From Candidatus Margulisbacteria bacterium GWF2_35_9 (lineage in GTDB: Bacteria > Margulisbacteria > Riflemargulisbacteria > GWF2-35-9): 32,158 nucleotides of DNA. Under the pieces are notes generated by a model, which was not told where the DNA came from, did no database searches, and saw only the letters and a list, made by a program, of their open reading frames with translations. A program made the translations under genes and the position numbers. The DNA lies in contig MFRH01000007.1 in assembly GCA_001783275.1 (NCBI GenBank), positions 1 to 32,158 on the forward strand. The letters are read 5' to 3'. Within the stretch, counting starts at the first letter, position 1; each line of letters starts with the position of its first letter. Positions 6,251 to 22,805 of the stretch are shown here, one piece after another.

Positions 6251-7318
6251 ATGTTTCAATTCAACGATCTCACAATTATTATTCCAACATATAGCAATCG
6301 ATACCGATTTGTGATTAGAACAGCCGAATATTGGAACAATACTGGGTCAGATATTATTATTCTAGATGAATCAATGGACCCTATGCCAAAGAACCTACAA
6401 CTCTTATTGCCTGAATCTTCTTTATACAAACACACCCCTTCTGAAAGTTTTTATGATAGGTTGAAAATTGCTACCAACCTTGTGAAGACACCATATGTAA
6501 TAATCTGTCCTGATGACAATTTTATGCTTCACAGTACCGTACATAAATGCATATTAAAAATTAAAGAACAACCGGAATTATTAGCATGCGCTGGAATATA
6601 CACTTGGTTCACCTGCTATAATGGTGATATATACAGTCTCGAAAAAATATCTGATCTAAGATTACATAATCCGCTAAGTGATAATATCAGTCAAAGATTA
6701 ATTGAATGTCAAGAAGTGATTTTTATGTATGGTGTGTGGAGAACTCGCACGCTCAGAACCTGTGTTAAAATGCTCCCGGATAAGCATTCTTCACCTGCTG
6801 TTCTCTTGTGCACACTTCAGTGTGGGCTGGCATATATGGGAAAGTGGGGTGAGATAAGAGAATTGATGTGGCTAAGGAGTTATGAAAAGCCATCAGCTTC
6901 AAAAAAAAATGGGACAAACCGAAATATCAGGTTTCAGACATGGTATGAAGAGAAAGCATACCAATCAGAAGTACAGGAGACATTCAGCAAGATGGTCGCA
7001 GTTCTTTCCGAGGAAACACAATCCAGTCAATTAGAAATTGATCAAAACCTAAAAGCCGCATTTAAAAATTTTGCCGAATTGTCCATACGACAATACGAAA
7101 AGGAACAATCTAATAATAGGGTTAAAAAGAGAAGGCGAATTATTCAAATTATTGCACCCTTATCTTTCAAAAAGGCCTGGCGTTATTACAAATATAAAAA
7201 CCTACCACCTGGAATATTGTTAACTAGTCAATTGTCATGGCTTGAAGAAAATAATATTCAAATCGACATCGAAGAAGTTAACAACGTAAAACAATTTATT
7301 AAACGTTTTTATGCATAA
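6251..7318 (+). CDS. glycosyltransferase, GT2-like (TIGR00180-type)
   Basis: LTIIIPTYSNRYRFVIRTAEYWNNTGSDIIILDES, TPYVIICPDDNFML (DD-type metal-binding motif). Confidence 0.72.
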   Translation: MFQFNDLTIIIPTYSNRYRFVIRTAEYWNNTGSDIIILDESMDPMPKNLQLLLPESSLYKHTPSESFYDRLKIATNLVKTPYVIICPDDNFMLHSTVHKCILKIKEQPELLACAGIYTWFTCYNGDIYSLEKISDLRLHNPLSDNISQRLIECQEVIFMYGVWRTRTLRTCVKMLPDKHSSPAVLLCTLQCGLAYMGKWGEIRELMWLRSYEKPSASKKNGTNRNIRFQTWYEEKAYQSEVQETFSKMVAVLSEETQSSQLEIDQNLKAAFKNFAELSIRQYEKEQSNNRVKKRRRIIQIIAPLSFKKAWRYYKYKNLPPGILLTSQLSWLEENNIQIDIEEVNNVKQFIKRFYA

Positions 7319-7328
7319 TCTTTGAAAC

Positions 7329-8339
7329 ATGTTAAACCATAAATCTATCCTTATCACCGGTGGTACCGGCTCTCTCGGAAAAGCGCTCACAAAAACGATA
7401 CTTAAAAGGTGGCCAAATGTAAAGCGACTGGTCATTTTCTCACGAGACGAGCAGAAGCATTATCAGATGGGGCAGGAATTTCCGGCTACAATATATCCTG
7501 CGATGAGATATTTAATTGGTGATGTTAGAGATCTCGATAGGCTCAAAAGGGCATTTAATGGGATTGATTTTGTTATTCATACGGCAGCTATGAAACATGT
7601 AGATATAGCGGAATACAATCCCGATGAATGCGTAAAGACAAATGTCGGGGGCGCTGAAAACGTAATTAAAGCCGCAATTGGATCAAGTATTGAAAAGGTT
7701 ATTGCGATTTCAACAGATAAAGCATGTGCTCCAATTAATTTATATGGTGCGACAAAACTTACTTCTGATAAATTATTCATTGCGGCGAACAATATTAAGG
7801 GTACTCAGGAAATTAAATTTTCTGTCGTTCGTTATGGTAATGTGATGGGCTCAAATGGCTCAGTAATGCCCTTTTTCATAAAAAAAAGAAAAGATGGGGT
7901 ATTACCTATTACAAACCCTGATATGACGCGTTTTAATATTTCACTTCAAGCAGGAGTTGAAATGGTGCTTTATGCTATTGAAAATGCTTGGGGTGGGGAA
8001 TTGTTTATTCCAAAAATTCCATCATATCGAATTTTGGACGTTGCTGAAGCTATTGGTCCAGATTGTGAGCATAAAGTAATTGGTATCAAACCGGGAGAAA
8101 AAATTCACGAGGAAATGATTACTCGTTCAGATTCGTTCAGTACTTATGATCTTGGGAAATATTATGTTATTCTTCCTCAAGTTACAAACTGGCATAGGAA
8201 TGAATGGATTAAAACCTTCAATGCAGTTATGGTCCAGCCTGGTTTTCATTATTCTTCCGGTGAAAATACAGAATGGGAGACCGTTGAGAACTTAAGGAAA
8301 TTGATCAAAGAGCATATTGATCCTAATTTTAAGGTATAA
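7329..8339 (+). CDS. pseB: UDP-N-acetylglucosamine 4,6-dehydratase (inverting)
   Basis: KSILITGGTGSLGKALTKTIL, VIFSRDEQKHYQMGQEFP, TAAMKHVDIAEYNPDECVKTNVGGAENVI, STDKACAPINLYGATKLTSDKLF, PEMTRF-like PDMTRFNIS. Confidence 0.95.
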   Translation: MLNHKSILITGGTGSLGKALTKTILKRWPNVKRLVIFSRDEQKHYQMGQEFPATIYPAMRYLIGDVRDLDRLKRAFNGIDFVIHTAAMKHVDIAEYNPDECVKTNVGGAENVIKAAIGSSIEKVIAISTDKACAPINLYGATKLTSDKLFIAANNIKGTQEIKFSVVRYGNVMGSNGSVMPFFIKKRKDGVLPITNPDMTRFNISLQAGVEMVLYAIENAWGGELFIPKIPSYRILDVAEAIGPDCEHKVIGIKPGEKIHEEMITRSDSFSTYDLGKYYVILPQVTNWHRNEWIKTFNAVMVQPGFHYSSGENTEWETVENLRKLIKEHIDPNFKV

Positions 8340-8342
8340 TTC

Positions 8343-9500
8343 ATGAAGTCAATCATTCCTTATGGTAGGCAAAACATTACAGAAGACGATATCCAAGCGG
8401 TTGTTAATACACTGAAGTCTGATTTTCTAACACAAGGACCAAAAATTGCCGAATTTGAACAAGTGTTTGCAAATTATATAGGTTCTAAATATGCCCTGGC
8501 TGTTGCAAACGGTACAGCTGCCTTGCATCTATCTGCAATGTCATTGAATGTTGAACCTGGCCAAAAGGTTATCACAACACCTATAACATTTGTTGCTACC
8601 ACTAACTGTGTGCGCTATTGTGGCGGTGAGGTTGTCTTCGCAGATATTGACCCTAATACCTTTTTATTGGCCATCAACAAGGTCAGAAATTTATTGGAAG
8701 CATCACCAAAGGGCACCTACCAGGGTATTATTCCAGTTGATTTTTCAGGGAGGCCAGTGAATCTCGAGGCATTCAGAAAATTAGCAGACGAATATGATTT
8801 ATGGATTATCGAAGATGCCTGCCATGCCCCTGGTGGGTTTTTTATTGACAGCAATGGACAACAACAAAAATGTGGTAATGGCAATTACGCTGATTTAGCC
8901 ATTTTTTCTTTTCATCCTGTTAAACATATCACTTGTGGTGAAGGGGGTATGATAACCACAAATAGTAAAAAATTGTATGATCGATTGTGTAATCTTCGCA
9001 CACACGGAATTCAGCAAAATCCCGATTTTAAATTGTATAATCACGGGGGCTGGTACTATGAGATGCAGGAACTGGGTTACAATTATCGGCTCACAGACAT
9101 TCAGGCGGCCTTAGGAATAAGTCAGTTAACACGTGCAGAGGAAGGCATCATTACAAGAAGAAGAATTGCAAAGAGATACAATGATGAATTTGCCGGCAAG
9201 TCATTTATAAAGAGACAGTCTGGATTGGTGAATGGTCATGCATATCATTTGTACATTATAGAAGTGGAAGATAGAATAGGCCTTTATAAAAAACTTAGAG
9301 AGAAGAACATTTTCGCACAGATTCATTATATCCCTTGTCATTTAATGCCATATTACCGTCAGTTTGGGTGGCAAGAGAGGGATATGCCAAATGCTGAAAA
9401 ATATTATCAGCATTGCATCAGCTTACCAATGTATCCGACATTAAGCCAAGAGGAACAGCAATATGTAATAAATACTATCAATGCATTCTATAAAAGCTAA
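8343..9500 (+). CDS. pseC: UDP-4-amino-4,6-dideoxy-N-acetyl-beta-L-altrosamine transaminase
   Basis: MKSIIPYGRQNITEDDIQAVVNTLKSDFLTQGPKIAEFEQ, FSFHPVKHITCGEGGMI (PLP lysine), IHYIPCHLMPYYRQFG; directly downstream of pseB. Confidence 0.95.
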   Translation: MKSIIPYGRQNITEDDIQAVVNTLKSDFLTQGPKIAEFEQVFANYIGSKYALAVANGTAALHLSAMSLNVEPGQKVITTPITFVATTNCVRYCGGEVVFADIDPNTFLLAINKVRNLLEASPKGTYQGIIPVDFSGRPVNLEAFRKLADEYDLWIIEDACHAPGGFFIDSNGQQQKCGNGNYADLAIFSFHPVKHITCGEGGMITTNSKKLYDRLCNLRTHGIQQNPDFKLYNHGGWYYEMQELGYNYRLTDIQAALGISQLTRAEEGIITRRRIAKRYNDEFAGKSFIKRQSGLVNGHAYHLYIIEVEDRIGLYKKLREKNIFAQIHYIPCHLMPYYRQFGWQERDMPNAEKYYQHCISLPMYPTLSQEEQQYVINTINAFYKS

Positions 9501-10500
9501 AATTTATATCCTTCGAGAGCCTTATAAATTATTTTTAGAAGAGGAGATAATCAATATAGATGAATTATTCGACCAGGAGTTTATCGCTGAAACTATTTAT
9601 ACCGCTATTTCACCGGGAACAGAAACCGGAGCATATATTGGTTTATCCTCATTAAGGCCTGGTAATCCCTACCCCAGGATTATGGGGTATTGTAATATTG
9701 CTAAAATAATTTATATTGGAACAAAAGTTAAGGATGTAAAAATAGGCGATCACATTCTTACTTTTCAATCGCATAGAAGTGCATTTAAATGCCATGTGAA
9801 TGATTTTTATATTAAAATACTCGATGAATCAAATCTTAAGTTTATTACTACTTCTTATTTGTATCATTTGGGATATCATAGCTTACTGACCGCTTATGTT
9901 AGACAAGGTTATAATGTCGGCATCATAGGTGCAGGGACTTTGGGATACACTTCAAGCATAATGAGCAGTTTAGCGGGAGTGAAAACTTTTTTATTTACCA
10001 ATCAAAAAGAAGTTTCTTCACTATTGTTAAATAAAGATGTATTCTGTTTACAAAAAAGTGAACATGAAATTGGAATAATGACAGATTTAACGCACCAAAT
10101 AGGATTGGATGTAATTGTCAATACCTCAAATACATGGGATGATTGGATTTTGGCATTAAAGATTGTCAGAAAAGGTGGTATGATAGTTAATTTAGGCTTT
10201 CCGGGCCGCGGGCAGGAGCTACCCGGATTTAATCCTTTAGACCCACAATATGTTTATGTTAAGAATTTAACTATTAAAGCCTTATGCTTTATTAATGAAG
10301 GGGATGTGCCAGCATATGAAATCAGATTTAATATGAAAAATAATCTTATGTTTATAATTGATTTAATAAGTAAGGGTAAAATAAATGCTCCTGAATTGAT
10401 CACACATGAAATTTATTACACACAATTACAGAATCAATATAAAAACTATGCGAAGAGAAACAATTTTATGCTATCAACTCTGATCAATTGGAAAGACTGA
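9481..10500 (+). CDS. medium-chain dehydrogenase/reductase (MDR, alcohol-dehydrogenase-like) without obvious zinc-ligand cysteines
   Basis: ETIYTAISPGTETGAYIG, MGYCNIAKIIYIGTKVKDVKIGDHI, VGIIGAGTLGYTSSIMSSLAG Rossmann motif, IVRKGGMIVNLGFPGRGQE. Confidence 0.72.
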   Translation: MHSIKAKIYILREPYKLFLEEEIINIDELFDQEFIAETIYTAISPGTETGAYIGLSSLRPGNPYPRIMGYCNIAKIIYIGTKVKDVKIGDHILTFQSHRSAFKCHVNDFYIKILDESNLKFITTSYLYHLGYHSLLTAYVRQGYNVGIIGAGTLGYTSSIMSSLAGVKTFLFTNQKEVSSLLLNKDVFCLQKSEHEIGIMTDLTHQIGLDVIVNTSNTWDDWILALKIVRKGGMIVNLGFPGRGQELPGFNPLDPQYVYVKNLTIKALCFINEGDVPAYEIRFNMKNNLMFIIDLISKGKINAPELITHEIYYTQLQNQYKNYAKRNNFMLSTLINWKD

Positions 10501-11549
10501 AGACAGCGATAATAGGATTAGGAAGAATGGGAGCTGAACCATCTTCAAGACTTAAAGGGAAAATACCTGATGGTTGGTTGCCTATTAGTCATACTGAAGT
10601 TGCTATGACCATACCTCAATTAAGATTGTGTGCTTTGTGTGATAGTGATAAAGTAAAACTTGAACAAGTCGGCAAGCTTTATAAAATAGCTAATATCTAC
10701 ACTGATTATAAACTTTTAATTGATGAAGTCAGACCTGATTTTCTTTGCATTGCCACTCGCACTTTAGGGAGAACTGACATTATGAAGTATGCTTGTGAAA
10801 ATGGAGTTAAGATCATATATCTGGAGAAACCAATAAGCAGAAGCATTGGAGATTGCAGAAACATATTAAATATTTGTAAAAAATACGGTGTAATCATCGG
10901 ATATGGCGTAAACAGACGTTATCATAGCGCCTATAGAAAAGCAAAAGAGATAATGTGTTCAGGAAAAATTGGCAAATTAAGAGAAATCATTGTAGAACAC
11001 GGTCGATCTAATTTGTTATGGACTCATTCTCATTCGGCTGATGTTATCCAATTTTTTGCTGAAAGTAGTGAATTGGAATTTATCCAGGGCACCTGCACTT
11101 TTTCGGATGGGTATTACCCTGTCACCGAGTTGCTAATTGACGACGATCCCATCGTTGAGAATGCATTCATGAAATTTAAAAACGGCATTACAGCTTCCAT
11201 CAATCAGACCGGTGGAATAAATGTTCGACTTTCATGCACAAATGGCATTTTGACAATATATGCCGATGGAACCTATATAGAAATATTAAAAGGGAGTGGC
11301 TATTTTTCACAACGTGAACGAATACAAGTTGAATCACTCCAAAGTGCAACTATTACAGCATTTCAAGAGTTGATCGATTCATTAAACAATGAAAAGCCTA
11401 AACCAATCACTCCTGCCGAAATCGAGACAGGAATGCTGATTTTACACGGAATTGTATATTCATCTTTGAATAACGGTAAGAGAATTGCACCCGAAGTTGT
11501 TCCTGAACAAATGACTATTACAGGAAAAAGCGGGAAATTTTATGCTTAA
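10488..11549 (+). CDS. Gfo/Idh/MocA family oxidoreductase (TTG start)
   Basis: LKTAIIGLGRMGAEPSSRLKGK, PDFLCIATRTLGRTDIMKYACENGVKIIYLEKPISRS (EKP motif), GVNRRYHSAYRKAKEIMCSGKIGKLREI. Confidence 0.85.
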   Translation: MERLKTAIIGLGRMGAEPSSRLKGKIPDGWLPISHTEVAMTIPQLRLCALCDSDKVKLEQVGKLYKIANIYTDYKLLIDEVRPDFLCIATRTLGRTDIMKYACENGVKIIYLEKPISRSIGDCRNILNICKKYGVIIGYGVNRRYHSAYRKAKEIMCSGKIGKLREIIVEHGRSNLLWTHSHSADVIQFFAESSELEFIQGTCTFSDGYYPVTELLIDDDPIVENAFMKFKNGITASINQTGGINVRLSCTNGILTIYADGTYIEILKGSGYFSQRERIQVESLQSATITAFQELIDSLNNEKPKPITPAEIETGMLILHGIVYSSLNNGKRIAPEVVPEQMTITGKSGKFYA

Positions 11550-12567
11550 AAGCAGGATTGTATTTAGAGCCGATGGAAACAGTCAGATAGGCTTAGGGCA
11601 TATTTACAGATGTGTTGCCATGATCCAGATGCTTGTGTATGAGTTTAATTGCTTGTTCATTACAAATAAACCTGACGCTAAAATAGCTGACCTTATACGT
11701 TCATATTGTTCACTTCATACAATAAAGGTACAAAACAAAGATGAAGAAATTGACGTATTAGAAGGCATTTTAACCTCCGGTGATATTGTTGTAACCGATG
11801 GTTATGATTTTGATCCCGAATACCAAAATCAAATAAAGCAAAGGGTAAAAAAATTAGTGATGATCGATGATTTGGCTCAAATGTATTTTATTGCAGATGT
11901 AATCATTAATCATGGAGGTACACCTATTATTGCAAAGTATCGAAAAGAAAAGGAGACAAAACTTCTGATTGGATTTGATTATCTGCTATTAAGAAAAGAG
12001 TTTCTTGAAACCGCCCGTAAACCGAGGACTATACATAAAACAAATACTGTATTTATATGTATGGGAGGAGCGGATCCGTTCAAAATAACAATTAAAGTAT
12101 TAAAAGCGTGTTTAAAAACTAGGTTTATTGAAAAGATTATAATAGTTACAGGTAACGAATACCGGGATCAAGCTGAGTTGGATTATTTAATTCGAAACAA
12201 TAAGGGGAAAAATATCTTGCACAAATGCAATATCGACGCCTTCATGATGACCAGGTTAATTTATGAGAGCCAAATAGCAATTTGTCCTTCAAGTACTATA
12301 GCACTTGAAGTTTGCTGTACTCAGGCTGGTCTGATAAGTGGAACTGTAATTAATAATCAGAAAGCAATCCACAAGCAACTGGTCGAAGCAGGTTGCTGTG
12401 TATCGGTCGGAGATTTCAAAAAAGCGTCATTAAAGCTAATGATTATTGCTCTTAAACGATTCAATGACCTGAACTTTACCCGGTCAATGATGATCAGGCA
12501 GTCAGTAAAAATTGACAGAAAATCCGGCGAAAGAATAGTAAATCTATTTAAAGAACTTTCGGCTTGA
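11542..12567 (+). CDS. pseG: UDP-2,4-diacetamido-2,4,6-trideoxy-beta-L-altropyranose hydrolase
   Basis: IVFRADGNSQIGLGHIYRCVAMIQML, VTDGYDFDPEYQ, VMIDDLAQ, NTVFICMGGADPFKIT, CPSSTIALEVCCTQAGLI. Confidence 0.92.
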   Translation: MLKSRIVFRADGNSQIGLGHIYRCVAMIQMLVYEFNCLFITNKPDAKIADLIRSYCSLHTIKVQNKDEEIDVLEGILTSGDIVVTDGYDFDPEYQNQIKQRVKKLVMIDDLAQMYFIADVIINHGGTPIIAKYRKEKETKLLIGFDYLLLRKEFLETARKPRTIHKTNTVFICMGGADPFKITIKVLKACLKTRFIEKIIIVTGNEYRDQAELDYLIRNNKGKNILHKCNIDAFMMTRLIYESQIAICPSSTIALEVCCTQAGLISGTVINNQKAIHKQLVEAGCCVSVGDFKKASLKLMIIALKRFNDLNFTRSMMIRQSVKIDRKSGERIVNLFKELSA

Positions 12568-13442
12568 GAATATTAAGTTTCGGAATATTAGTAAGTGGTA
12601 ATCTGGGTAAACATTGTCTGGAGTTTATCTTGAAATGTCAAAAGGTAAATTTTGTATTGACGGATAAAGAATCGATAGGAATCATTAATCTTTGTACAGT
12701 CTTAAATATTCCCATATTTATTGGTAATCCAAGACAAGGTAAGGCGAAAGGTTTTATTGATCAGTTTGATACCGATATAATTTTTTCAATTAACTATATT
12801 TATATCGTTGAGCAGGATATTATCAAATATCCTAAGAGCTATGCGATTAATTTTCATGGATCATTATTACCAAAATACAGAGGCAGGTCACCTCATGTGT
12901 GGGCTATTATTAATAATGAAAAAACAACAGGTATTTCTGCTCATCTTATTACGGAAGAATGTGATGCAGGCTGTCTGATTTATCAAGAGATTATCCCTAT
13001 TCCTGAAGATATTACTGGAGCCGAAATCTTAACAGAATTTAAAAAGCAGTATCCGATTGTCATATCAATAGTTATTGATATGATACAAAAAGACACTATT
13101 AATCCCGTAAAACAAGATAATAGCAAAGCCACTTGGTTTGGTAAACGAACTCCAGCAGATGGAATAATCAATTGGAATTGGCAAAAGGAGCAATTAAGAA
13201 ACTGGATACGCGCCCAGACAAAGCTATACCCGGGAGCTTTTACATTTTATAATCATCAAAAAATCACAATTTATAGAATTGAATACTGTGATTATGGTTT
13301 TAATCAATTTGATGAAAATGGTATAATCCTGGATATTAGAGATGGAGTAATAGTTAAAACGCCAAATGGCGCAATAAGGATTTTGGATTACGATTCTGAT
13401 ATCCCAATAGAGTTTAAAAAAGGAGGAATGTTTCATGGATGA
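12564..13442 (+). CDS. sugar N-formyltransferase (methionyl-tRNA formyltransferase-like), TTG start
   Basis: YAINFHGSLLPKYRGRSPHVWAIINNEKTTGISAHLITEECDAGCLIYQEIIPI keeps the Asn-x-x-His / Asp catalytic residues of the Fmt fold; C-terminal WNWQKEQLRNWIRAQTKLYPGAFTFY. Confidence 0.9.
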   Translation: MRILSFGILVSGNLGKHCLEFILKCQKVNFVLTDKESIGIINLCTVLNIPIFIGNPRQGKAKGFIDQFDTDIIFSINYIYIVEQDIIKYPKSYAINFHGSLLPKYRGRSPHVWAIINNEKTTGISAHLITEECDAGCLIYQEIIPIPEDITGAEILTEFKKQYPIVISIVIDMIQKDTINPVKQDNSKATWFGKRTPADGIINWNWQKEQLRNWIRAQTKLYPGAFTFYNHQKITIYRIEYCDYGFNQFDENGIILDIRDGVIVKTPNGAIRILDYDSDIPIEFKKGGMFHG

Positions 13443-14487
13443 TATCAATATCGGGAACTTTAAGATTGGAAAGAACCTCGAACCTTTAATAGTAGCAGAG
13501 ATGAGTGGTAACCATAACCAATCTCTCGAGAAAGCTTTATCTATAATTGATTCAGCTGCAGATGCTGGGGCACATGCCATTAAGCTACAAACTTATACAG
13601 CAGATACCTTAACAATCAATGTGAACCATGGTGAGTTCGTTATTTCAGACCCAGCCTCTCTGTGGTGTGGTAAAAACCTTTATGAATTATACCAGCAGGC
13701 ACATACCCCCTGGAAATGGCACAAGGCATTATTCGACCGTGCTAGAGAGCGTGGGATTATCTGTTTCAGTACCCCGTTTGATGAAAGTGCTGTTGATTTT
13801 CTTGAAGAACTTGATGCCCCAGCATATAAAATTGCATCTTTTGAAAATAACCACTTCCCTTTATTGAAGAAAGTTGCTGCAACGGGTAAACCTGTAATAA
13901 TGTCAACAGGCATAACCTCATTATCTGATCTTAGTTTGGCGGTTAACGTATTACGGAAAAACGGATGTAAGGATCTTGCATTACTTAAATGTACCAGTAC
14001 CTATCCAGCTTCTCCCGAAAACTCCAATGTTTTAACCATCCCCCACATGTCGGAGTTATTTCAATGTCATGTAGGCTTATCAGACCACACATTAGGGATT
14101 GGAGTGGTAATTGCCTCGGTTGCACTAGGTGCAAGAATAATAGAGAAACATTTTACATTAAATCGGGCTGAGGGAGGTGTTGACAGCGCATTCTCACTTG
14201 AGCCTCATGAGTTTAAAATGCTTGTCGAAGAAAGTATAAGAGCATTTAAGGGAATAGGTACCGTAAACTACGGTATACTTGACGCAGAACAAAACAGTTT
14301 GACTTTTAAACGGTCAATTTATATTGTTGAAGACCTAAGAGTGGGAGCAACCTTAACAGAGGAAAATATTCGAATTATCAGACCAGGACTGGGGATGTCA
14401 CCCCAGTACTATGAAACCATATTAGGAAAAAAAATCAATAAAGATGTAACAAAAGGTACCGCATTAACATTTGATCTGATTGGTTAA
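13435..14487 (+). CDS. pseI: pseudaminic acid synthase
   Basis: IGKNLEPLIVAEMSGNHNQSLEKALSIIDSAADAGAHAIKLQTYTADT, CFSTPFDESAVDFLEELDAPAYKIASFE, VGLSDHTLGIGV, EKHFTLNRAEGGVDSAFSLEP, C-terminal SAF-like region. Confidence 0.96.
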   Translation: MDDINIGNFKIGKNLEPLIVAEMSGNHNQSLEKALSIIDSAADAGAHAIKLQTYTADTLTINVNHGEFVISDPASLWCGKNLYELYQQAHTPWKWHKALFDRARERGIICFSTPFDESAVDFLEELDAPAYKIASFENNHFPLLKKVAATGKPVIMSTGITSLSDLSLAVNVLRKNGCKDLALLKCTSTYPASPENSNVLTIPHMSELFQCHVGLSDHTLGIGVVIASVALGARIIEKHFTLNRAEGGVDSAFSLEPHEFKMLVEESIRAFKGIGTVNYGILDAEQNSLTFKRSIYIVEDLRVGATLTEENIRIIRPGLGMSPQYYETILGKKINKDVTKGTALTFDLIG

Positions 14488-14488
14488 C

Positions 14489-15196
14489 ATGGGAAAGACA
14501 TTAGCAATAATTACGGCTCGCGGGGGAAGTAAGCGAATTCCGGGAAAGAACATTAAAAACTTCTTAGGACAACCTATTATCAATTACTCCATTTCAGCAG
14601 CTTTGAATTCGGGCTGCTTTGATGAGGTAATGGTATCGACTGACGATACCAGAATTGCTGTAATTGCAAAAAAAGCAGGTGCAACGATTCCTTTTATGCG
14701 ATCTGAAAATACATCCGGTGATTTTGCTACTACAGCAGATGTGATTTTAGAAGTTTTGGACGAATACAGGAAAATCGGACTTACATACGAATATTGTTGT
14801 TGTATATATCCGACTGCAATCTTTCTAACGGCTGAAAAACTGATTACCGCATTCGATAAATTGCTTATAACAAATGCAGAATCGGTTATTCCTGTTGTTC
14901 GTTATAGCTTTCCTATTCAGAGATCGTTTAAAATTGAGAATGGTTTTGTCAGAATGAACTGGCCAGAGCATATGAATACCAGATCTCAGGATCTGCCGCC
15001 GGCCTATCATGATTGCGGGCAATTCTATTTTTTAAGAACAGATGCATTCTTAAAGACTAAAAGGTTGTTTACAGATTTTACCATCCCTTATGAGATGCCA
15101 GAATCAGAAGTTCAAGATATCGATAATGAGGAGGATTGGAATATAGCCAAAATAAAATATACATTCCTCTTGGAGAAATTTAAATCAAATGTATAA
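14489..15196 (+). CDS. pseF: pseudaminic acid cytidylyltransferase
   Basis: LAIITARGGSKRIPGKNIKNFLGQPIINYSISAALNSGCFDEVMVSTDD, CCIYPTAIFLT, DIDNEEDWNIAKIKY; ATG at 14489 preferred over TTG 14480. Confidence 0.94.
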   Translation: MGKTLAIITARGGSKRIPGKNIKNFLGQPIINYSISAALNSGCFDEVMVSTDDTRIAVIAKKAGATIPFMRSENTSGDFATTADVILEVLDEYRKIGLTYEYCCCIYPTAIFLTAEKLITAFDKLLITNAESVIPVVRYSFPIQRSFKIENGFVRMNWPEHMNTRSQDLPPAYHDCGQFYFLRTDAFLKTKRLFTDFTIPYEMPESEVQDIDNEEDWNIAKIKYTFLLEKFKSNV

Positions 15197-16136
15197 GGCA
15201 TTAGTAATCGGTTGCGGCAACATAGGGGCATTATATGATCTAAACAATGATCAGGTTCAAACGCATACAAAAGCCTTCCATTTTGATCCCAAGTTTTCAT
15301 TATCAATATTTGATATCAACAAAATAGTTGCAGAAAAAATTGCTTATAAATACCATTGTGAAGTTGTTAAAGATATCGACGAAAAAAAACTGAATTCATT
15401 TGATTGTGTAAGTATCTGTACCCCAACTAATACACATTACAGTTTTCTTAAACAGTCGATTTGTGCCGGTGTTCAGTTAATTATTTGCGAGAAACCTGTT
15501 TCTGATAAAATAAATGAATTAAACGATGTAAAAACCATTTATACCAAGGGAAAATCCAAAATATTAATCAATTATATAAGAAGATTTCAACCAGCATTCA
15601 TTGAATTGAAAAAAACTATATCAACTTTATTAAAAAACGAAGCTCTTACTAACATTAATATCCGATATCATAGAGGTTTTATTAATAATTGCAGCCACGC
15701 CTTTGACACAATTGAATTTCTTACAGGTTCTGAGATATGTTTAACAGAAATTAAAAAGCATAACATAATTTTTGACCATTTTGATAACGATCCAACCATG
15801 TCATTACAAGCCAAATGGAAAGATACAAATATAAATGTTACTGGGTTAAGCAATGTTTGCTTTTCTCATTTCGAATTTGAATTGTATTTTGAGTATTATA
15901 AAATTCACATAAAAGACTCAGGACAGAATATTGTAATATATAAGGCAAAAAAAGCTGAGGGATTTCTTCAACCACTCAATATTCTAGACCAATATACCCG
16001 CGAGCAATGTTTAAACAATTATATGAAACATGTTATTGATAAAGCTTATCAATTATTGAGCAATAAGAAACAAGAGGATAATTTCCTTCAATCAATAAGT
16101 CTTAATAAAAAGATGATAAATTATTTAAAAAATTAA
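15189..16136 (+). CDS. Gfo/Idh/MocA family oxidoreductase
   Basis: YKALVIGCGNIGALYD, FDCVSICTPTNTHYSFLKQSICAGVQLIICEKPVSDK. Confidence 0.87.
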   Translation: MYKALVIGCGNIGALYDLNNDQVQTHTKAFHFDPKFSLSIFDINKIVAEKIAYKYHCEVVKDIDEKKLNSFDCVSICTPTNTHYSFLKQSICAGVQLIICEKPVSDKINELNDVKTIYTKGKSKILINYIRRFQPAFIELKKTISTLLKNEALTNINIRYHRGFINNCSHAFDTIEFLTGSEICLTEIKKHNIIFDHFDNDPTMSLQAKWKDTNINVTGLSNVCFSHFEFELYFEYYKIHIKDSGQNIVIYKAKKAEGFLQPLNILDQYTREQCLNNYMKHVIDKAYQLLSNKKQEDNFLQSISLNKKMINYLKN

Positions 16137-16137
16137 T

Positions 16138-17427
16138 ATGGCAATTCTTGCTATTAAAGGTGGCACTCCTATTCGTACGAAGTTATTCCCTGCATACAAC
16201 AATATTGGAAAAGAAGAAAAACGTGCTGTAATGAAGGTGCTGGACAGTGGAAACCTTTCCCAATTTTTGGGAGCATGGCATAAAGATTTTTATGGTGGAC
16301 CAACTATTCAGAAATTTGAAAAAGATTGGGCAAAAATTTTCCTATCAAAATATGCCATTACAGTTAATTCTAATACATCAGGCTTATTTACAGCTATTGG
16401 CGCCTGTGGAATTAAACCAGGCGACGAAGTAATTGTATCTCCATATTCCATGAGCGCAAGCGCCGTTGCGCCTATCATTTATGGTGCAGTACCTGTATTT
16501 GCTGATGTCGACTATGATAATTTCGGATTAAACCCTGAAAGTATTGAAAAAAGTATCACTCCAAGAACAAGGGCAATACTGGTAGTCCATATTTTTGGGA
16601 ATCCTGCGCGTATGGATGAAATTATGGCTATAGCAAAAAAGCATAATCTATATGTAATTGAAGATTGTGCACAAGCCCCGATGGCAACCTACAAAAGAAA
16701 ATATGTTGGGACCATTGGAGACATTGGAATTTTCAGCTTGAATTATCATAAGCATATACATACAGGTGAGGGAGGAGTAATAGTTACCAATAATGATAAT
16801 TTGGCTGAAAGGTGTTATCTAATTAGGAATCATGGAGAAAATATTGTTGAACCTAAAGGAGTAAAAGATGCAATCAATACATATGGCTATAATTTCCGCA
16901 TGACGGAGATTGAAGCTGCAATTGGAATTGAACAATTAAAAAAACTTCCGAACTTAATAGAAGAGCGTTTAAAAAATGCTGTGTATTTATCAAAAGAAAT
17001 TGCCAAATTACCTTACTTTATTCCGCCAGTGGTTGAACAAGAGAGTAAACATGTCTATTACCAGCAGGCGTTTAAGTTCAAAAAAGATATAGCTGGAATT
17101 GATCGTAACACTTTTATCAATGCAGTTAAAGCAGAAATACCATCTGCTATATTAAGGGAAGATACTCCACTTATAGGTGCGGGTTATGTGAAACCGTTAT
17201 ATTTACAACCTTTATATCAGAAAAGAGCTTTACACTGTTCATTTAATTGCGAAAAATATAAAGGTCATGTTGATTACAGTAAAGGTATTTGCCCAATTGT
17301 TGAGAAATTGCACTTTGAGGAACTTATTACACTTGAATATATGCGGCCAGGCATGAGTAAGGTAGATCTGAATGATGTAATAGCTGCTTTTTATAAGGTA
17401 GCTCAAAATATTAATGAGCTAAAATAG
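16138..17427 (+). CDS. DegT/DnrJ/EryC1/StrS family aminotransferase
   Basis: AIKGGTPIRTKLFPAYNNIGKEEKRAVMKVLDSG, CGIKPGDEVIVSPYSMSASAVAPI, VIEDCAQAP, GDIGIFSLNYHKHIHTGEGGVIVTNN (PLP lysine). Confidence 0.93.
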   Translation: MAILAIKGGTPIRTKLFPAYNNIGKEEKRAVMKVLDSGNLSQFLGAWHKDFYGGPTIQKFEKDWAKIFLSKYAITVNSNTSGLFTAIGACGIKPGDEVIVSPYSMSASAVAPIIYGAVPVFADVDYDNFGLNPESIEKSITPRTRAILVVHIFGNPARMDEIMAIAKKHNLYVIEDCAQAPMATYKRKYVGTIGDIGIFSLNYHKHIHTGEGGVIVTNNDNLAERCYLIRNHGENIVEPKGVKDAINTYGYNFRMTEIEAAIGIEQLKKLPNLIEERLKNAVYLSKEIAKLPYFIPPVVEQESKHVYYQQAFKFKKDIAGIDRNTFINAVKAEIPSAILREDTPLIGAGYVKPLYLQPLYQKRALHCSFNCEKYKGHVDYSKGICPIVEKLHFEELITLEYMRPGMSKVDLNDVIAAFYKVAQNINELK

Positions 17428-17428
17428 A

Positions 17429-18391
17429 TTGAGAACCAAGCTTAAAGGGAAAATATTATTTGTTTTTAGTGACCCAGGAGGGGCGAAACCTTGCCTTTCA
17501 CTGATAGAAGAAAATAACCTTTCTAACGTAATTGCGGTATCCGATAGGCGATATTCATTCTATCATAGTTTTAAAACTCCGGTTAAAATTGTAAATAAGA
17601 ATTTTGAAGAACTAATTAAAATTATTAACCCCGAACTGATATTTACCGGCACATCATATACATCAAATATTGAGCAACAATTCATTAACATTGCTTTAAA
17701 AAATAGAATTCGTTGCTATTCATTTATAGACCACTGGACTTCTATTTCAAAAAGATTTAAAAATTTAGATGGTAAAATGATTTTGCCGGATCAAGTATGG
17801 GTGATTGACGAGCGGGCAAAACAGTTAGCTATTGAGGAAGGTATTGATAAAGACAGGTTGGTTATTTCCGGGAATCCTTATCACGATTGGTTATTAAATT
17901 GGAAACCCACAATAAATAGAGAAGCCTTTTTTAAACAAGTAGGATTACAACATATAAATCAAAAAATTTTAGTGTATGCCCCTGATCCGCTTTCGAATGT
18001 TAAAGGGAAAGAAGTATTTGGATTCGATGAGTTGTCAGCTACTTCAGTATTGGTTGAACTATTCAAAAAGTATCCAACTAAACTGAAAGGATGGAAGATT
18101 TTAGTTAAAGCGCATCCTAATCAGGATAGAGACAAATTAAATAAAATCATTGAGAGGCATAAAACTTTTTATATACTTCCTGAAGAAGTTGATATAAATT
18201 TAGCATTATTTTATGCAGATGCTGTAATAGGGTTTTTCTCTTCAGTTTTGATTGAGGCGACAATTATGAATAAACCCGTTTTGCGTTTTTTAGATGGACT
18301 GACTAAAAATGATCCGATTGTTGGTTTAAATGTTGGTATGATTACGAATAGAAACACCTTTATCACAATGCTTTCAAAAATTACTCTATGA
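17429..18391 (+). CDS. GT-B-like / CDP-glycerol-glycerophosphotransferase-like protein, function unknown; candidate glycosyltransferase
   Basis: ILFVFSDPGGAKPCLSLIEE, GNPYHDWLLN, ILVYAPDP, WKILVKAHPNQDRDKLNKII, FYADAVIGFFSSVLIEATIMNKPVLRF; TTG start. Confidence 0.55.
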   Translation: MRTKLKGKILFVFSDPGGAKPCLSLIEENNLSNVIAVSDRRYSFYHSFKTPVKIVNKNFEELIKIINPELIFTGTSYTSNIEQQFINIALKNRIRCYSFIDHWTSISKRFKNLDGKMILPDQVWVIDERAKQLAIEEGIDKDRLVISGNPYHDWLLNWKPTINREAFFKQVGLQHINQKILVYAPDPLSNVKGKEVFGFDELSATSVLVELFKKYPTKLKGWKILVKAHPNQDRDKLNKIIERHKTFYILPEEVDINLALFYADAVIGFFSSVLIEATIMNKPVLRFLDGLTKNDPIVGLNVGMITNRNTFITMLSKITL

Positions 18392-18936
18392 TATTAAAAA
18401 AAGACATTTTTCTGGCCGGTGAGCATATTTATCTTAGAATCTTGAATGAAAGAGATATTGAAGGTAATTATGCTATTTGGCTTAATGACCCGGAAATAAC
18501 AGCTTTCAGCTCACATGGTAGATTTCCAATGACTGTAGAAAAGCTGAAAGAGTTTGTGAAGGGATCTTATCTATCTAATTCATGTCTTGTATTTGCTATT
18601 ATTCATAAAGAGACTGATGAGCATATCGGAAATATTAGTTTGCAATGTATCAGTTGGATAGATAAAAGCGCAGAAATTGCATTTCTTTTAGGAGAAAAAA
18701 GATACTGGGGTAAAAATATAATGTTTGAAGCAGGCAGTTTATTGATTAATCACGGTTTTAAGATGTTAAATCTTCATAGGATATATTGTGGAACATCAGC
18801 AGAAAATATTGGAATGCAGAAGCTAGCTGATAAATTGGGTATGATAAAAGAAGGCGTTAGAAAAGATGCCATTTATAAAAATGGTAAGTTTATTGATATT
18901 ATCGAATATGGGATAATATTAAAACAAATTGTATGA
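18388..18936 (+). CDS. GNAT family N-acetyltransferase (RimJ/RimL type); possible sugar-amine acetyltransferase
   Basis: IYLRILNERDIEGNYAIWLNDPEIT, HIGNISLQCISWIDKSAEIAFLLGEKRYWGKNIMFEAGSLLINHGFKMLNLHRIYCGTSAENIGMQKLADKLGM. Confidence 0.88.
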   Translation: MILKKDIFLAGEHIYLRILNERDIEGNYAIWLNDPEITAFSSHGRFPMTVEKLKEFVKGSYLSNSCLVFAIIHKETDEHIGNISLQCISWIDKSAEIAFLLGEKRYWGKNIMFEAGSLLINHGFKMLNLHRIYCGTSAENIGMQKLADKLGMIKEGVRKDAIYKNGKFIDIIEYGIILKQIV

Positions 18937-20063
18937 ACTATTGTAAAAAATGTTTGCAGCCAGATACTAGACCCGGCATAAAATTTGATCAGCATGGCAT
19001 TTGTCCTGCATGTATTTATTATGAGAGTTTGAAAGAAGTTGATTGGGAGGAACGTAAAAATGAATTAGATTTAATAGTAGCTTTTGGGAAAGCCAATAAT
19101 CATTCCGGATATGATTGCATTATAGGAGTAAGTGGGGGGAAAGACAGTCTCCGACAAGCTATTTATGTTAAAGAAGTTCTAAGGATGAATCCTTTATTGG
19201 TTAACTTATCATATCCGCCTGAGCAGATTACGCCTAGGGGCGTAGAAAATGTCTCTAATATGATCAGACATGGATTTGATTGTATTTCTGTTAATCCTGC
19301 TCCACAAATATGGAGAAAATTAATGCGCAAAGGATTTTTCGAGTATACTAACTGGGCAAAATCTACCGAGTTTGCTTTGTTTAGCAGTGTTCCTCGGTTG
19401 GCAATAGCTTACCAGATACCTTTAATATGGTGGGGAGAGAATGCTGCTTTGCAACTAGGAGATCTGTATGTGATGGGAAAAAGTGGAAGTGACGGCAATA
19501 ACCTTCGTAAAATGAATACCCTTGGTGGTGCCGATATTTCTTGGCTATTAAGTAAAGAAATTAAAAAAAAACAGATACTTCAATATTGTTATCCTTCAGA
19601 AAAGGAAATGGTAGATGCCAATTTGCGGATAACTTTTCTAGGCTATTTTTGGAAAAACTGGTCACTAGTAGATAATGGAACTTACTCTGCTCTCAGAGGA
19701 CTTGAAATACGAAATGAAGCACCTCAAGATATTGGTGATTCGGAAGGAGTCACCTCATTAGATGAAGATTGGGTAGGATTGAATCAAATGATAAAATATT
19801 ATAAATATGGTTTTGGAAGAATCACTGATTATGCAAACGAAGATATTAGGTTAGCAAGAATTGCGCGCGAAGAAGCTATCGAAATAGTGAGAGATTATGA
19901 TGGATGTTGTTCTCCTAGATATATATTAAGTTTTTGTAATTATATTGGAATTACTATTGTGGAATTTTGGAAACAAGTAGATAAATCGGTTAATAAGGAT
20001 CTGTTTGAAAAAAATAAAGATGGGAAGTGGATGCCTAAATTCAAAGTGGGAATAGGGCTATGA
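18933..20063 (+). CDS. N-acetyl sugar amidotransferase (WbpG/PseA-like), canonical PP-loop
   Basis: NYCKKCLQPDTRPGIKFDQHGICPACIYYE (four-Cys zinc motif), YDCIIGVSGGKDSLRQAIYVKEVL (SGGKDS PP-loop), IPLIWWGENAALQLGD. Confidence 0.9.
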   Translation: MNYCKKCLQPDTRPGIKFDQHGICPACIYYESLKEVDWEERKNELDLIVAFGKANNHSGYDCIIGVSGGKDSLRQAIYVKEVLRMNPLLVNLSYPPEQITPRGVENVSNMIRHGFDCISVNPAPQIWRKLMRKGFFEYTNWAKSTEFALFSSVPRLAIAYQIPLIWWGENAALQLGDLYVMGKSGSDGNNLRKMNTLGGADISWLLSKEIKKKQILQYCYPSEKEMVDANLRITFLGYFWKNWSLVDNGTYSALRGLEIRNEAPQDIGDSEGVTSLDEDWVGLNQMIKYYKYGFGRITDYANEDIRLARIAREEAIEIVRDYDGCCSPRYILSFCNYIGITIVEFWKQVDKSVNKDLFEKNKDGKWMPKFKVGIGL

Positions 20064-20683
20064 AGCAACTTAAAATTGTGATTATTGATTATGGAGTTGG
20101 AAATACTCATTCTGTATCAAATGCTATCAAACACCTTGGCTACAAGCAGCTCAAAATATCTGATAATGAACAAACGATAAAAGAAGCAGATGTGCTCATA
20201 CTTCCCGGGGTCGGAGCTTTTGATGAATGCATGAAAAATCTCAAAGACAGTCACCTTGATACAATACTTGGGGAACAGGTGCTGGAAAACAAAAAACCAA
20301 TCCTTGGGATTTGTGTCGGCATGCAGATGATGGCAGAATTTTCTGAAGAGAACGGTATACACCAAGGATTGAATTGGATACATGGAATGGTAAAAAAATT
20401 AGATTTACCAAAAAATTTTGCTGTTCCACATGTTGGTTGGAACAATGTAACAATTGAACACAACGAACCAATTTTTAGTCGCAATGATGAAAACTGTAAT
20501 TTTTACTTCGACCACAGTTATTATTTTCATTGCAATGAGGAATATGTATCGGCATGGTGCGACTATGGAGTAAAAATTACGGCTGCAGTGCAGCAGGACA
20601 ATATATTTGGAGTACAGTTCCATCCGGAGAAAAGCCAGACCAACGGGCTTAAACTTTTTCGAAGCTTTTTTAATTCAATATAA
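20060..20683 (+). CDS. hisH: imidazole glycerol phosphate synthase subunit HisH homologue (glutaminase), probably supplying ammonia for sugar amidination
   Basis: IVIIDYGVGNTHSVSNAIKHLG, ILPGVGAFDECM, ILGICVGMQMMAE (catalytic Cys), GVQFHPEKSQTNG (His, Glu). Confidence 0.93.
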   Translation: MKQLKIVIIDYGVGNTHSVSNAIKHLGYKQLKISDNEQTIKEADVLILPGVGAFDECMKNLKDSHLDTILGEQVLENKKPILGICVGMQMMAEFSEENGIHQGLNWIHGMVKKLDLPKNFAVPHVGWNNVTIEHNEPIFSRNDENCNFYFDHSYYFHCNEEYVSAWCDYGVKITAAVQQDNIFGVQFHPEKSQTNGLKLFRSFFNSI

Positions 20684-20685
20684 TC

Positions 20686-21552
20686 GTGTTAAAAAAAAGA
20701 ATTGCAGCCACTTTATTGGTAAAAGATGGTATCGTTGTTCAAAGCATTGGATTTAACAAATATTTGCCTGTGGGTAAACCGGCCATTGCAGTTGAATATC
20801 TGAATCAATGGGGTATCGATGAGATTATTTTGCTTGATATTTCAGCAACCTGCAAGCAGATTTCTCCTGATTATTCAATGATTAAAAAAGCATCATTGAA
20901 ATGTTATGTTCCTTTATCAGTAGGTGGAGGAATAACGGAAGTAAGACATATCCGGGAACTCATGCACTGCGGTGCTGATAAATTATCCTTGAACCAATCT
21001 GCAATATTTAATACCGATCTTATTTCGGAAGCCGCACATATATTTGGGAACCAATGTGTGGTAGTTTCTATCGATGGTGTTAAAGTGGGCAATGGCTATT
21101 GTGTCTATGATTATATTAAAAAGACTAATTTAAAGATCTCTCCTGCTGAAATGGCCAGTAAGGCTGAAGAAGCTGGTGCCGGAGAAATACTGATCAATTC
21201 TGTTGATAGGGATGGAATGTATTCAGGATATGATATTGAACTCATTAATTCAGTTTGTGAAAAAGTTACCATTCCTGTAATAGGTTGTGGAGGAGCAAAG
21301 AATGCGAAAGATATGATTGATCTTTTCCAAAATACATCCGTTTCGGCAGCATGTGCTGGTAATTTCTTCCATTTCACAGAACACAGTGTCAATGTAACCA
21401 AAGCCAGTATATTGAAAAGTATTAATGTAAGATTGGAAACCTATGCTAACTATAAGGAAAATAACATTAACGAAGACTTCCGCCTATCCAAAAAGGCAGA
21501 TAGTGTATTGGAAGAAATGTTGTTTATGAGAATTGAAAAAGAAGTTATATGA
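20686..21552 (+). CDS. hisF: HisF-like protein, divergent paralogue (GTG start)
   Basis: MLKKRIAATLLVKDGIVVQSIGFNKYLPVGKPAIAVEYLNQWGIDEIILLDISAT, VPLSVGGGITEV, VVSIDGVKV, GEILINSVDRDGMYSGYD, IPVIGCGGAKN. Confidence 0.92.
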   Translation: MLKKRIAATLLVKDGIVVQSIGFNKYLPVGKPAIAVEYLNQWGIDEIILLDISATCKQISPDYSMIKKASLKCYVPLSVGGGITEVRHIRELMHCGADKLSLNQSAIFNTDLISEAAHIFGNQCVVVSIDGVKVGNGYCVYDYIKKTNLKISPAEMASKAEEAGAGEILINSVDRDGMYSGYDIELINSVCEKVTIPVIGCGGAKNAKDMIDLFQNTSVSAACAGNFFHFTEHSVNVTKASILKSINVRLETYANYKENNINEDFRLSKKADSVLEEMLFMRIEKEVI

Positions 21553-22805
21553 AATATTGTAAGCGTTGTTTATATCCCGAAAATCATCCATTGAATATTA
21601 TTTTTGACAATGATGGTATATGCAGTGGTTGCCGAGTACATGAAGAAAAGGATCAGTTAGACTGGGAACCAAGGGGTAGAAAACTAAAAAGTATACTTGA
21701 CAATTATAAAAACCTCTCAGGAAATAATTATGATTGTATCATTCCAGTTAGTGGTGCCCGTGATTCTTATTTTATTGTTCATACCGTCAAGAAGTTATAT
21801 GGCTTGAACCCTCTCCTGGTAACGTATAATAAGCAGTACAATACAGATGTAGGTATTCGAAACCTCGCAAATCTCAGGATATTATTTGACTGTGATATAA
21901 TGACACTGACTGTAAATCCCGAGACAGTAAAAAAGATCACAAGGGCCAGTTTACGAAAATCTGGAAGTATTTACTGGCATTGTCTTGCTGGGCAAACGGT
22001 TTTTCCGGTGCAAATGGCGGTTAAATTTAAGATACCACTTATCATATGGGGGGCTCACCAAGGTATTGACCAAGTTGGCATGTTTTCACATTTGGATGAA
22101 GTTGAAATGACAAGGAAATACCGCAAAGAACATGACTTGATGGGGTATGAAGCTGAAGACTTAATTGATGAATTTGATGAAATTAACGAACAGGATATTG
22201 TTCAATTTAAATATCCTGATGATAAAGAAATTGAAAGGATTGGTGTAAGAGGAATTTATCTTAGTAATTTTATACGGTGGGATACCAAGGCGCAGCATGA
22301 GAAAATGATTAAATTATATAATTATGAAACACACGAGCAAACCCGCACATTCGATACATATAACGATGTAGACTGTTACAATTATTCTGATGTACATGAT
22401 TATATTAAATACTTAAAGCATGGATATGGAAAGATTACAGATCATGCCAGTCGAGAAATAAGGCTCAGAAGAATGACCAGGGAACAGGGTATCAAATTAG
22501 TAAAACAATTCTCAACTATTAAGCCCAATAATTTAAATCTTTTTTTAGATTGGATTGGAATGACAGAAAACAGTTTTCATTTCATCATTGACAAACATAG
22601 GAACAAACAAATTTGGAAGCGAAATGAACATTGGGAATGGGAACTCACTCAAAATATTATTCCTGATGCAATCGGCGATGATATAAATCAAAAGACCAGC
22701 TTGGAATTAGCTGAAAAATGGAGTGACTTCTATTTGACTCCACACAAGAACAGCACGGATAGAAAAGGGGAGTATATTTTAGTAGGGAAAGGGTTTATAT
22801 CCTAA
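21549..22805 (+). CDS. second N-acetyl sugar amidotransferase-like protein with variant PP-loop (SGARDS)
   Basis: KYCKRCLYPENHPLNIIFDNDGICSGCRVHEE (four-Cys motif), YDCIIPVSGARDSYFIVHTVKKLYGLNPLLVTYNKQ, IPLIIWGAHQGIDQVG, YLKHGYGKITDHASREIRLRRMTREQGI. Confidence 0.85.
   Translation: MKYCKRCLYPENHPLNIIFDNDGICSGCRVHEEKDQLDWEPRGRKLKSILDNYKNLSGNNYDCIIPVSGARDSYFIVHTVKKLYGLNPLLVTYNKQYNTDVGIRNLANLRILFDCDIMTLTVNPETVKKITRASLRKSGSIYWHCLAGQTVFPVQMAVKFKIPLIIWGAHQGIDQVGMFSHLDEVEMTRKYRKEHDLMGYEAEDLIDEFDEINEQDIVQFKYPDDKEIERIGVRGIYLSNFIRWDTKAQHEKMIKLYNYETHEQTRTFDTYNDVDCYNYSDVHDYIKYLKHGYGKITDHASREIRLRRMTREQGIKLVKQFSTIKPNNLNLFLDWIGMTENSFHFIIDKHRNKQIWKRNEHWEWELTQNIIPDAIGDDINQKTSLELAEKWSDFYLTPHKNSTDRKGEYILVGKGFIS

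Follow-up and report, generated by a model that had tools for sequence, protein, structure and literature searches.

The 32,158-nucleotide stretch analysed here (contig MFRH01000007.1 of Candidatus Margulisbacteria bacterium GWF2_35_9, hereafter the window) carries a four-gene sugar-amidation cassette in which two paralogous amidotransferases, AT1 and AT2, bracket one HisH-type glutaminase and one HisF-type barrel. From its sequence features, we consider that the cassette probably encodes a heteromeric amidotransferase, with AT1 as the catalytic subunit and AT2 as a HisF-docked, non-catalytic partner, operating as one machine that would make an acetamidino nonulosonate. The data suggest a two-part enzyme that shares its ammonia, rather than two separate reactions, and the observations behind this reading are gene order, conservation, motif losses, phylogeny (ancestry) and co-variation. 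The four genes are:

18933..20063, + strand: AT1 amidotransferase, 376 aa, proposed catalytic subunit (TIGR03573, 292 bits)
20060..20683, + strand: HisH-type glutaminase, 207 aa, proposed ammonia source (TIGR01855, 234.9 bits)
20686..21552, + strand: HisF-type barrel, 288 aa with a GTG start, from a cassette-specific subfamily with a C-terminal extension; proposed ammonia conduit
21549..22805, + strand: AT2, paralogue of AT1, 418 aa, proposed non-catalytic, HisF-docked partner of AT1 (TIGR03573, 356 bits)

Read from the sequence, the junctions are an ATGA overlap between AT1 and HisH (20060-20063), a two-nucleotide gap between HisH and HisF (TAA-TC-GTG, 20681-20688) and a further ATGA overlap between HisF and AT2 (21549-21552). 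An earlier note on this DNA had described the same gene order, joined by 4-bp overlaps or a 2-nt gap, and had placed it inside a pse cluster; the open reading frames (ORFs) and junctions bear out the former, and the latter agrees with the PseB, PseC, PseG, PseI and PseF proteins of the window, each of which is above its NCBIfam equivalog cut-off.

Motifs, conservation and ancestry of AT1 and AT2

Both AT1 and AT2 pass the curated cut-off (203.2 bits) of TIGR03573, the WbuX family of N-acetyl sugar amidotransferases (NASAT), with 31% identity between the two. A tree built from 221 family members separates the AT1 clade (n = 62, support 1.0) from the AT2 clade (n = 59, support 0.91-0.97), and a rerun in which the PP-loop and GEN columns were masked left this separation unchanged. 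The AT1 of the window has the PP-loop SGGKDS (residues 67-72), the GEN glutamate (E169) and a zinc tetracysteine (C4/C7/C24/C27); SGG and E169 are kept in 62/62 members of its clade, which has the SGGKDS loop throughout. In the AT2 of the window, the PP-loop reads SGARDS (residues 68-73) and A169 replaces the conserved glutamate. Across the AT2 clade this glutamate is gone in 59/59 members (Ala in 57), the SGG/TGG core is lost in 51/59, the GG pair being kept in just eight, and the pattern SGGXDS is unmatched in 57/59. Among the closest non-cassette members of the family, 45 of 47 keep both SGG and the glutamate.

Outside the ATP site, AT2 is strongly conserved. The zinc tetracysteine (CXXC...CXXC) is invariant in both clades, AT2 retains the equivalents of D61, D71, N106, K291, G293 and R312, and 84 columns are at least 97% invariant in AT2 vs 58 in AT1, many of the AT2 invariants being polar residues specific to AT2 near HQG..Q.G..SH. 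Because all of these are kept and the ATP loop and glutamate are lost, AT2 is under strong constraint, but not for the standard ATP loop. A decaying remnant, a fate that had been considered for one of the two amidotransferases in relatives, is ruled out for AT2, which is intact and of full length and, away from the ATP loop, shows stronger conservation than AT1, only its ATP-site motif being eroded. Both proteins are confidently predicted to have the family fold. The AlphaFold models of AT1 (predicted local distance difference test, pLDDT, 89.7) and AT2 (pLDDT 88.0) match the LpNASAT structure 8wex with template modelling (TM) scores of 0.83, the best PDB match for AT1, and 0.74, respectively. 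Separately, W244 of AT2 is a tryptophan conserved in AT2 and its close relatives (Tyr/Phe in distant ones), and the corresponding residue 242 is Asp, Glu or Asn in the AT1 clade; a clade-specific change is thus present on the AT1 side as well.

The immediate relative of AT2, in G169 (L203, 7350-11265), is more degenerate still, with the PP-loop VGTGDD and the glutamate replaced by Val. Its genes run HisH-HisF-AT2'-AT1', so that AT2' lies beside an intact amidotransferase in a second arrangement of a degenerate/intact pair. The next sisters of AT2, in G203 and G060, have an intact SGGKDS and are HisH/HisF-associated. In G203 (L205, 8359-10446) the HisF and the amidotransferase, SGGKDS intact, are fused in one 696-aa ORF of a Pse-type cluster, which argues that the AT2 lineage docks on HisF.

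Co-variation of the four proteins

We compared the four proteins by a mirror-tree approach (pairwise distance correlations and their partials over 41 loci), of which a 25-locus, eight-gene version was also made. The AT1 and AT2 distances correlate at r = 0.89, with a partial correlation of 0.69 (5-95% subsampling range 0.36-0.79), close to the r of 0.85 and partial of 0.68 for HisH-HisF, a known heterodimer. No other pair has a partial above 0.19, not even the adjacent AT1-HisH and HisF-AT2, and AT1 and AT2 are themselves non-adjacent; in their co-variation the four genes thus fall into an inner pair and an outer pair. With the window's own subgroup removed, AT1-AT2 and HisH-HisF are still the strongest (0.68 and 0.80), with AT1-HisH rising to 0.35.

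The HisH and HisF of the cassette

The cassette HisH lies well above the TIGR01855 cut-off (234.9 vs 105.4 bits), and its motifs, the GICVG cysteine and the His/Glu of QFHPEKS, are present in all cassettes displayed. The best family for HisF is TIGR03572 (WbuZ), at a score below the cut-off (253.1 vs 299.7 bits), and it is also below the AglZ/HisF2 cut-off (226.1 vs 310 bits). The cassette HisF proteins form one clade (n = 60, support 0.96), G169 included. In the window, the first cyclase Asp is replaced (CLD to TLL, the D11 position being L), as it is in 54/55 cassette HisF proteins; the D130 position is lost in 45/55 and kept in the window. Because cyclase Asp residues are lost, the cassette HisF would be a conduit or scaffold at most. 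A separate canonical hisF (329 bits) lies on another contig of the same genome, so the cassette pair is not its sole histidine-type enzyme.

Distribution of the four-gene order

A scan of genome contigs for AT1 gave 61 loci from named genomes, and AT1-HisH-HisF-AT2 occurs in the same order and orientation in 55 of them, spread over at least six phyla (Bacteroidota, Pseudomonadota, Verrucomicrobiota, Cyanobacteria, Chloroflexi and Actinomycetes). Since it is conserved in these loci of other genomes, the arrangement is far beyond chance. A hunt for genomes with this order had been proposed in the earlier note, which had also implied that the arrangement is rare; the hunt was productive and the rarity was not borne out. 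In L046 a contig end falls inside the cassette, and in L060, L061, L062, L064 and L069 an AT1-type enzyme (~43-46% identical to the window AT1) has no HisH, HisF or AT2 nearby. Family-level searches added seven genomes of Sphingomonadaceae in which the paired spacing recurs (seed included), and two further paired carriers, G1483 and G1059, were each read directly.

In a sample of 74 genomes from the window's own phylum, no other genome had a complete AT1/AT2 pair. A single further AT2-type gene occurs in that sample, in G046 (L202), and it is the only AT2 found without AT1; just upstream of it (6387-7385) lies an ORF that fuses N-terminal parts of PseC to C-terminal parts of HisF, which is likely a deletion or misassembly. 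The cassette AT2 was not found in plasmid records, which held only single family members at ~31% identity or less. Nonulosonate loci with a single amidotransferase exist (L205, L273); amidation in itself therefore does not require a second one.

Proposed mechanism and points against it

We infer complex formation, a lack of catalysis by AT2, the substrate and the acetamidino product as follows. HisH would split glutamine, and the HisF barrel, without the cyclase residues of the histidine pathway, would carry the ammonia. AT1 would bind ATP through its intact PP-loop and activate the N-acetyl oxygen for replacement by ammonia, the LpNASAT structure (PMC10607449) being the source of the ATP to AMP chemistry proposed for this family. 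AT2 may descend from a HisF-docked amidotransferase after loss of ATP use, with its fold, zinc site and a strongly conserved polar pocket retained; paired with AT1 in a heteromer, it would serve as the non-catalytic subunit that docks HisF, holds the sugar or does both. The relay would then run from the HisH glutaminase through the HisF conduit and AT2 docking to ATP-dependent amidination by AT1, converting a nonulosonate N-acetyl group, probably of a pseudaminic acid derivative, to acetamidino.

Several points weigh against this proposal. AT2 retains the PP-loop Asp and Ser, and a full SGGxDS is found in 2/59 members (SGGQDS, SGGHDS), so some ATP binding by AT2 is possible. The conserved glutamate is also missing in more distant, intact-looking SGG[VLI]DS relatives, and its loss alone therefore proves nothing. 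As for the co-variation, same-family rate effects may contribute to the AT1-AT2 correlation, paralogues with similar rate profiles may correlate from causes other than contact, and locus pairs in a mirror-tree are not independent. Finally, LpNASAT was seen as a homodimer, yet its interface is poorly conserved (PMC10607449).

The surrounding pseudaminic acid cluster

Two blocks of genes precede the cassette:

7329..15196, + strand: Pse core, comprising PseB, PseC, (zinc dehydrogenase-like and Gfo/Idh proteins), PseG, a formyltransferase, PseI and PseF (NCBIfam equivalogs)
15189..18936, + strand: upstream module, comprising a Gfo/Idh dehydrogenase (15189), a DegT aminotransferase (16138), a putative glycosyltransferase (17429) and a GNAT acetyltransferase (18388)

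In all, the window has a formyltransferase, two Gfo/Idh proteins, a second DegT aminotransferase, a GNAT protein and putative glycosyltransferases in addition to the Pse equivalogs. The G+C content is 0.32-0.40 across ~6-24 kb vs 0.41-0.46 in the flanks, and the whole Pse and amidation cluster falls inside this AT-rich stretch, which, given its lower G+C content, is consistent with a transferred island. The formyltransferase (12564-13442) sits between PseG and PseI. No window protein is above the PseH cut-off, and a 7-formamido pseudaminic acid is cited in PMC3210612 as reported from Pseudoalteromonas distincta; taken together with the formyltransferase, this means that the core sugar may be N-formylated. 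In other loci, a PseI-like synthase (41-75% identical to that of the window) is present in most, and a distant NeuB-type synthase only (27-33%) in a few.

The DegT aminotransferase of the upstream module (429 aa) is not close to any solved enzyme and scores higher against KdnA (183 bits) than against WbpE (110 bits). KdnA is the 8-amino-Kdo transaminase, and the Gfo/Idh and DegT pair (15189-17427) might introduce an 8-amino group into the nonulosonate; a WbpB/E/D-type 2,3-diamino sugar was also considered, as a possible second substrate. Both Gfo/Idh and DegT are upstream in 40/55 cassettes. DegT is absent in seven cassettes with the full 10 kb upstream in view, and L061 has the order Gfo-DegT-GNAT-AT1 without HisH, HisF or AT2, so AT2 is not tied to the Gfo/DegT module and does not merely serve a second amino group. 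The assignment of AT2 to a Gfo/DegT-derived amino group is weakened accordingly, as the two modules separate in both directions.

Alternative explanations

The earlier note had offered two readings of the cassette, a hetero-complex in which one subunit is catalytic and the other is not, or two amidinated positions (or two different sugars). The first is favoured by the clade-wide motif loss in AT2 and the AT1-AT2 co-variation; the second is weakened by the independence of AT2 from the extra Gfo/DegT module. In its better-surviving form, both amidotransferases would be active on the same nonulosonate, at two N-acyl positions, for instance C5 plus C7 or an amino group added at C8, and share HisH/HisF. 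We regard this as unlikely, although it accounts for a single HisH/HisF flanked by two family members of full length and for the PP-loop Asp/Ser and highly conserved polar pocket that AT2 retains; in addition, the Gfo/DegT/GNAT set of the cluster could add a further N-acetyl group, and natural 8-amino-nonulosonates exist (Flexibacter maritimus, PMC3210612). An unrelated lineage (G060; L204, 6671-10386) also has AT-HisH-HisF-AT with both PP-loops intact (SGGKDS), and this independent bracket arrangement may represent two active enzymes. The AT2 of the cassettes, however, has its ATP loop and pocket glutamate eroded across the clade, at least seven cassettes lack DegT over the full 10 kb upstream, and L061 pairs Gfo/DegT/GNAT with AT1 in the absence of AT2.

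Less probable again is an AT2 that is active with changed chemistry, for example an altered loop that binds a nucleotide sugar or a different nucleotide without ATP hydrolysis, and that carries out an independent step. The strong AT2-specific invariants would fit such an enzyme, as would the third structural match of AT2, the APS reductase 2goy, which has the PP-loop fold (a weak match, TM 0.28). The APS reductase family carries a modified, non-ATP-hydrolysing loop. The neighbouring genes, however, point to no new reaction or substrate, and AT2 occurs only beside an intact amidotransferase and HisH/HisF, save on the one chimeric contig (G046). Very improbable, in our judgement, are two amidotransferases for two different sugars of the same cluster, as with PseA/PtmG for pseudaminic and legionaminic acids in Campylobacter (PMC13317340, PMC13130089): the extra dehydrogenase and aminotransferase genes upstream would suit this, but AT1 and AT2 are inherited as a unit in 55 loci with varying other sugar genes, only PseI lies directly upstream in L044, L047-L049, L051 and L272, and AT2 was never found with its own sugar pathway.

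Comparison with known systems

Acetamidino sugars on surface glycans and flagella bear on adhesion, phage binding and serotype. No worked-out account of how the HisH/HisF ammonia supply is coupled to the amidotransferase was found in the literature searched, and a conserved catalytic/non-catalytic pair present across many phyla is a testable system for this coupling. Counts of WbuX-family genes may, moreover, overestimate the amidinated positions predicted from genomes. A two-amidotransferase HisH/HisF cassette with a conserved catalytic/eroded pair was not found described in the open-access literature (subscription papers were outside the search).

The cassette otherwise falls among the WbpG/WbuX-HisH-HisF acetamidino systems, from which it is set apart by its paired amidotransferases and its seemingly dead HisF subfamily. 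WbpG-HisH2-HisF2 and WbuX-WbuZ (P. aeruginosa O5, E. coli O145) likewise have, within a locus for surface sugars, a TIGR03573 enzyme together with HisH and a HisF-like barrel, but with one amidotransferase instead of two; the cassette further differs from them in its HisF, which falls short of both the WbuZ and the AglZ/HisF2 cut-off and lacks cyclase residues, and in the altered ATP loop of AT2. Two family members in one nonulosonate region are also known from Campylobacter, in PseA and PtmG (Pse5Ac7Am and Leg5Am7Ac synthases; PMC13317340, PMC13130089), and amidotransferase multiplicity alone is therefore not new. PseA (1137 bp, ~378 aa; PMC13130089) is similar in size to AT1 (376 aa), but each of the two Campylobacter enzymes is assigned a sugar of its own, whereas AT1 and AT2 bracket HisH/HisF as one inherited unit. 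LpNASAT of Legionella pneumophila (8WEX), the closest solved structure for both AT1 and AT2, shares their zinc tetracysteine and is a homodimer in the crystal; unlike the AT1/AT2 pair, it is a single amidotransferase with SGGKDS intact.

The closest working model for AT1/AT2 is the tRNA thiolase Ctu1/Ctu2 (Ncs6/Ncs2), a PP-loop heterodimer from a homodimeric ancestor whose diverged second subunit has kept its zinc sites but not the catalytic cluster, both subunits being needed in vivo (PMC10067955). The proposed AT1/AT2 pair would likewise combine a catalytic with a diverged, zinc-site-bearing subunit; Ctu1/Ctu2 differs in reaction, substrate and family, has an Fe-S cluster and works without HisH/HisF. 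We tentatively extend the comparison, at somewhat less than even confidence, to a widespread four-subunit amidotransferase in which a cyclase-dead HisF and an ATP-site-dead AT2 would form an ammonia/substrate relay between HisH and a live AT1, and which would be to bacterial sugar amidation what Ctu1/Ctu2 is to tRNA thiolation.

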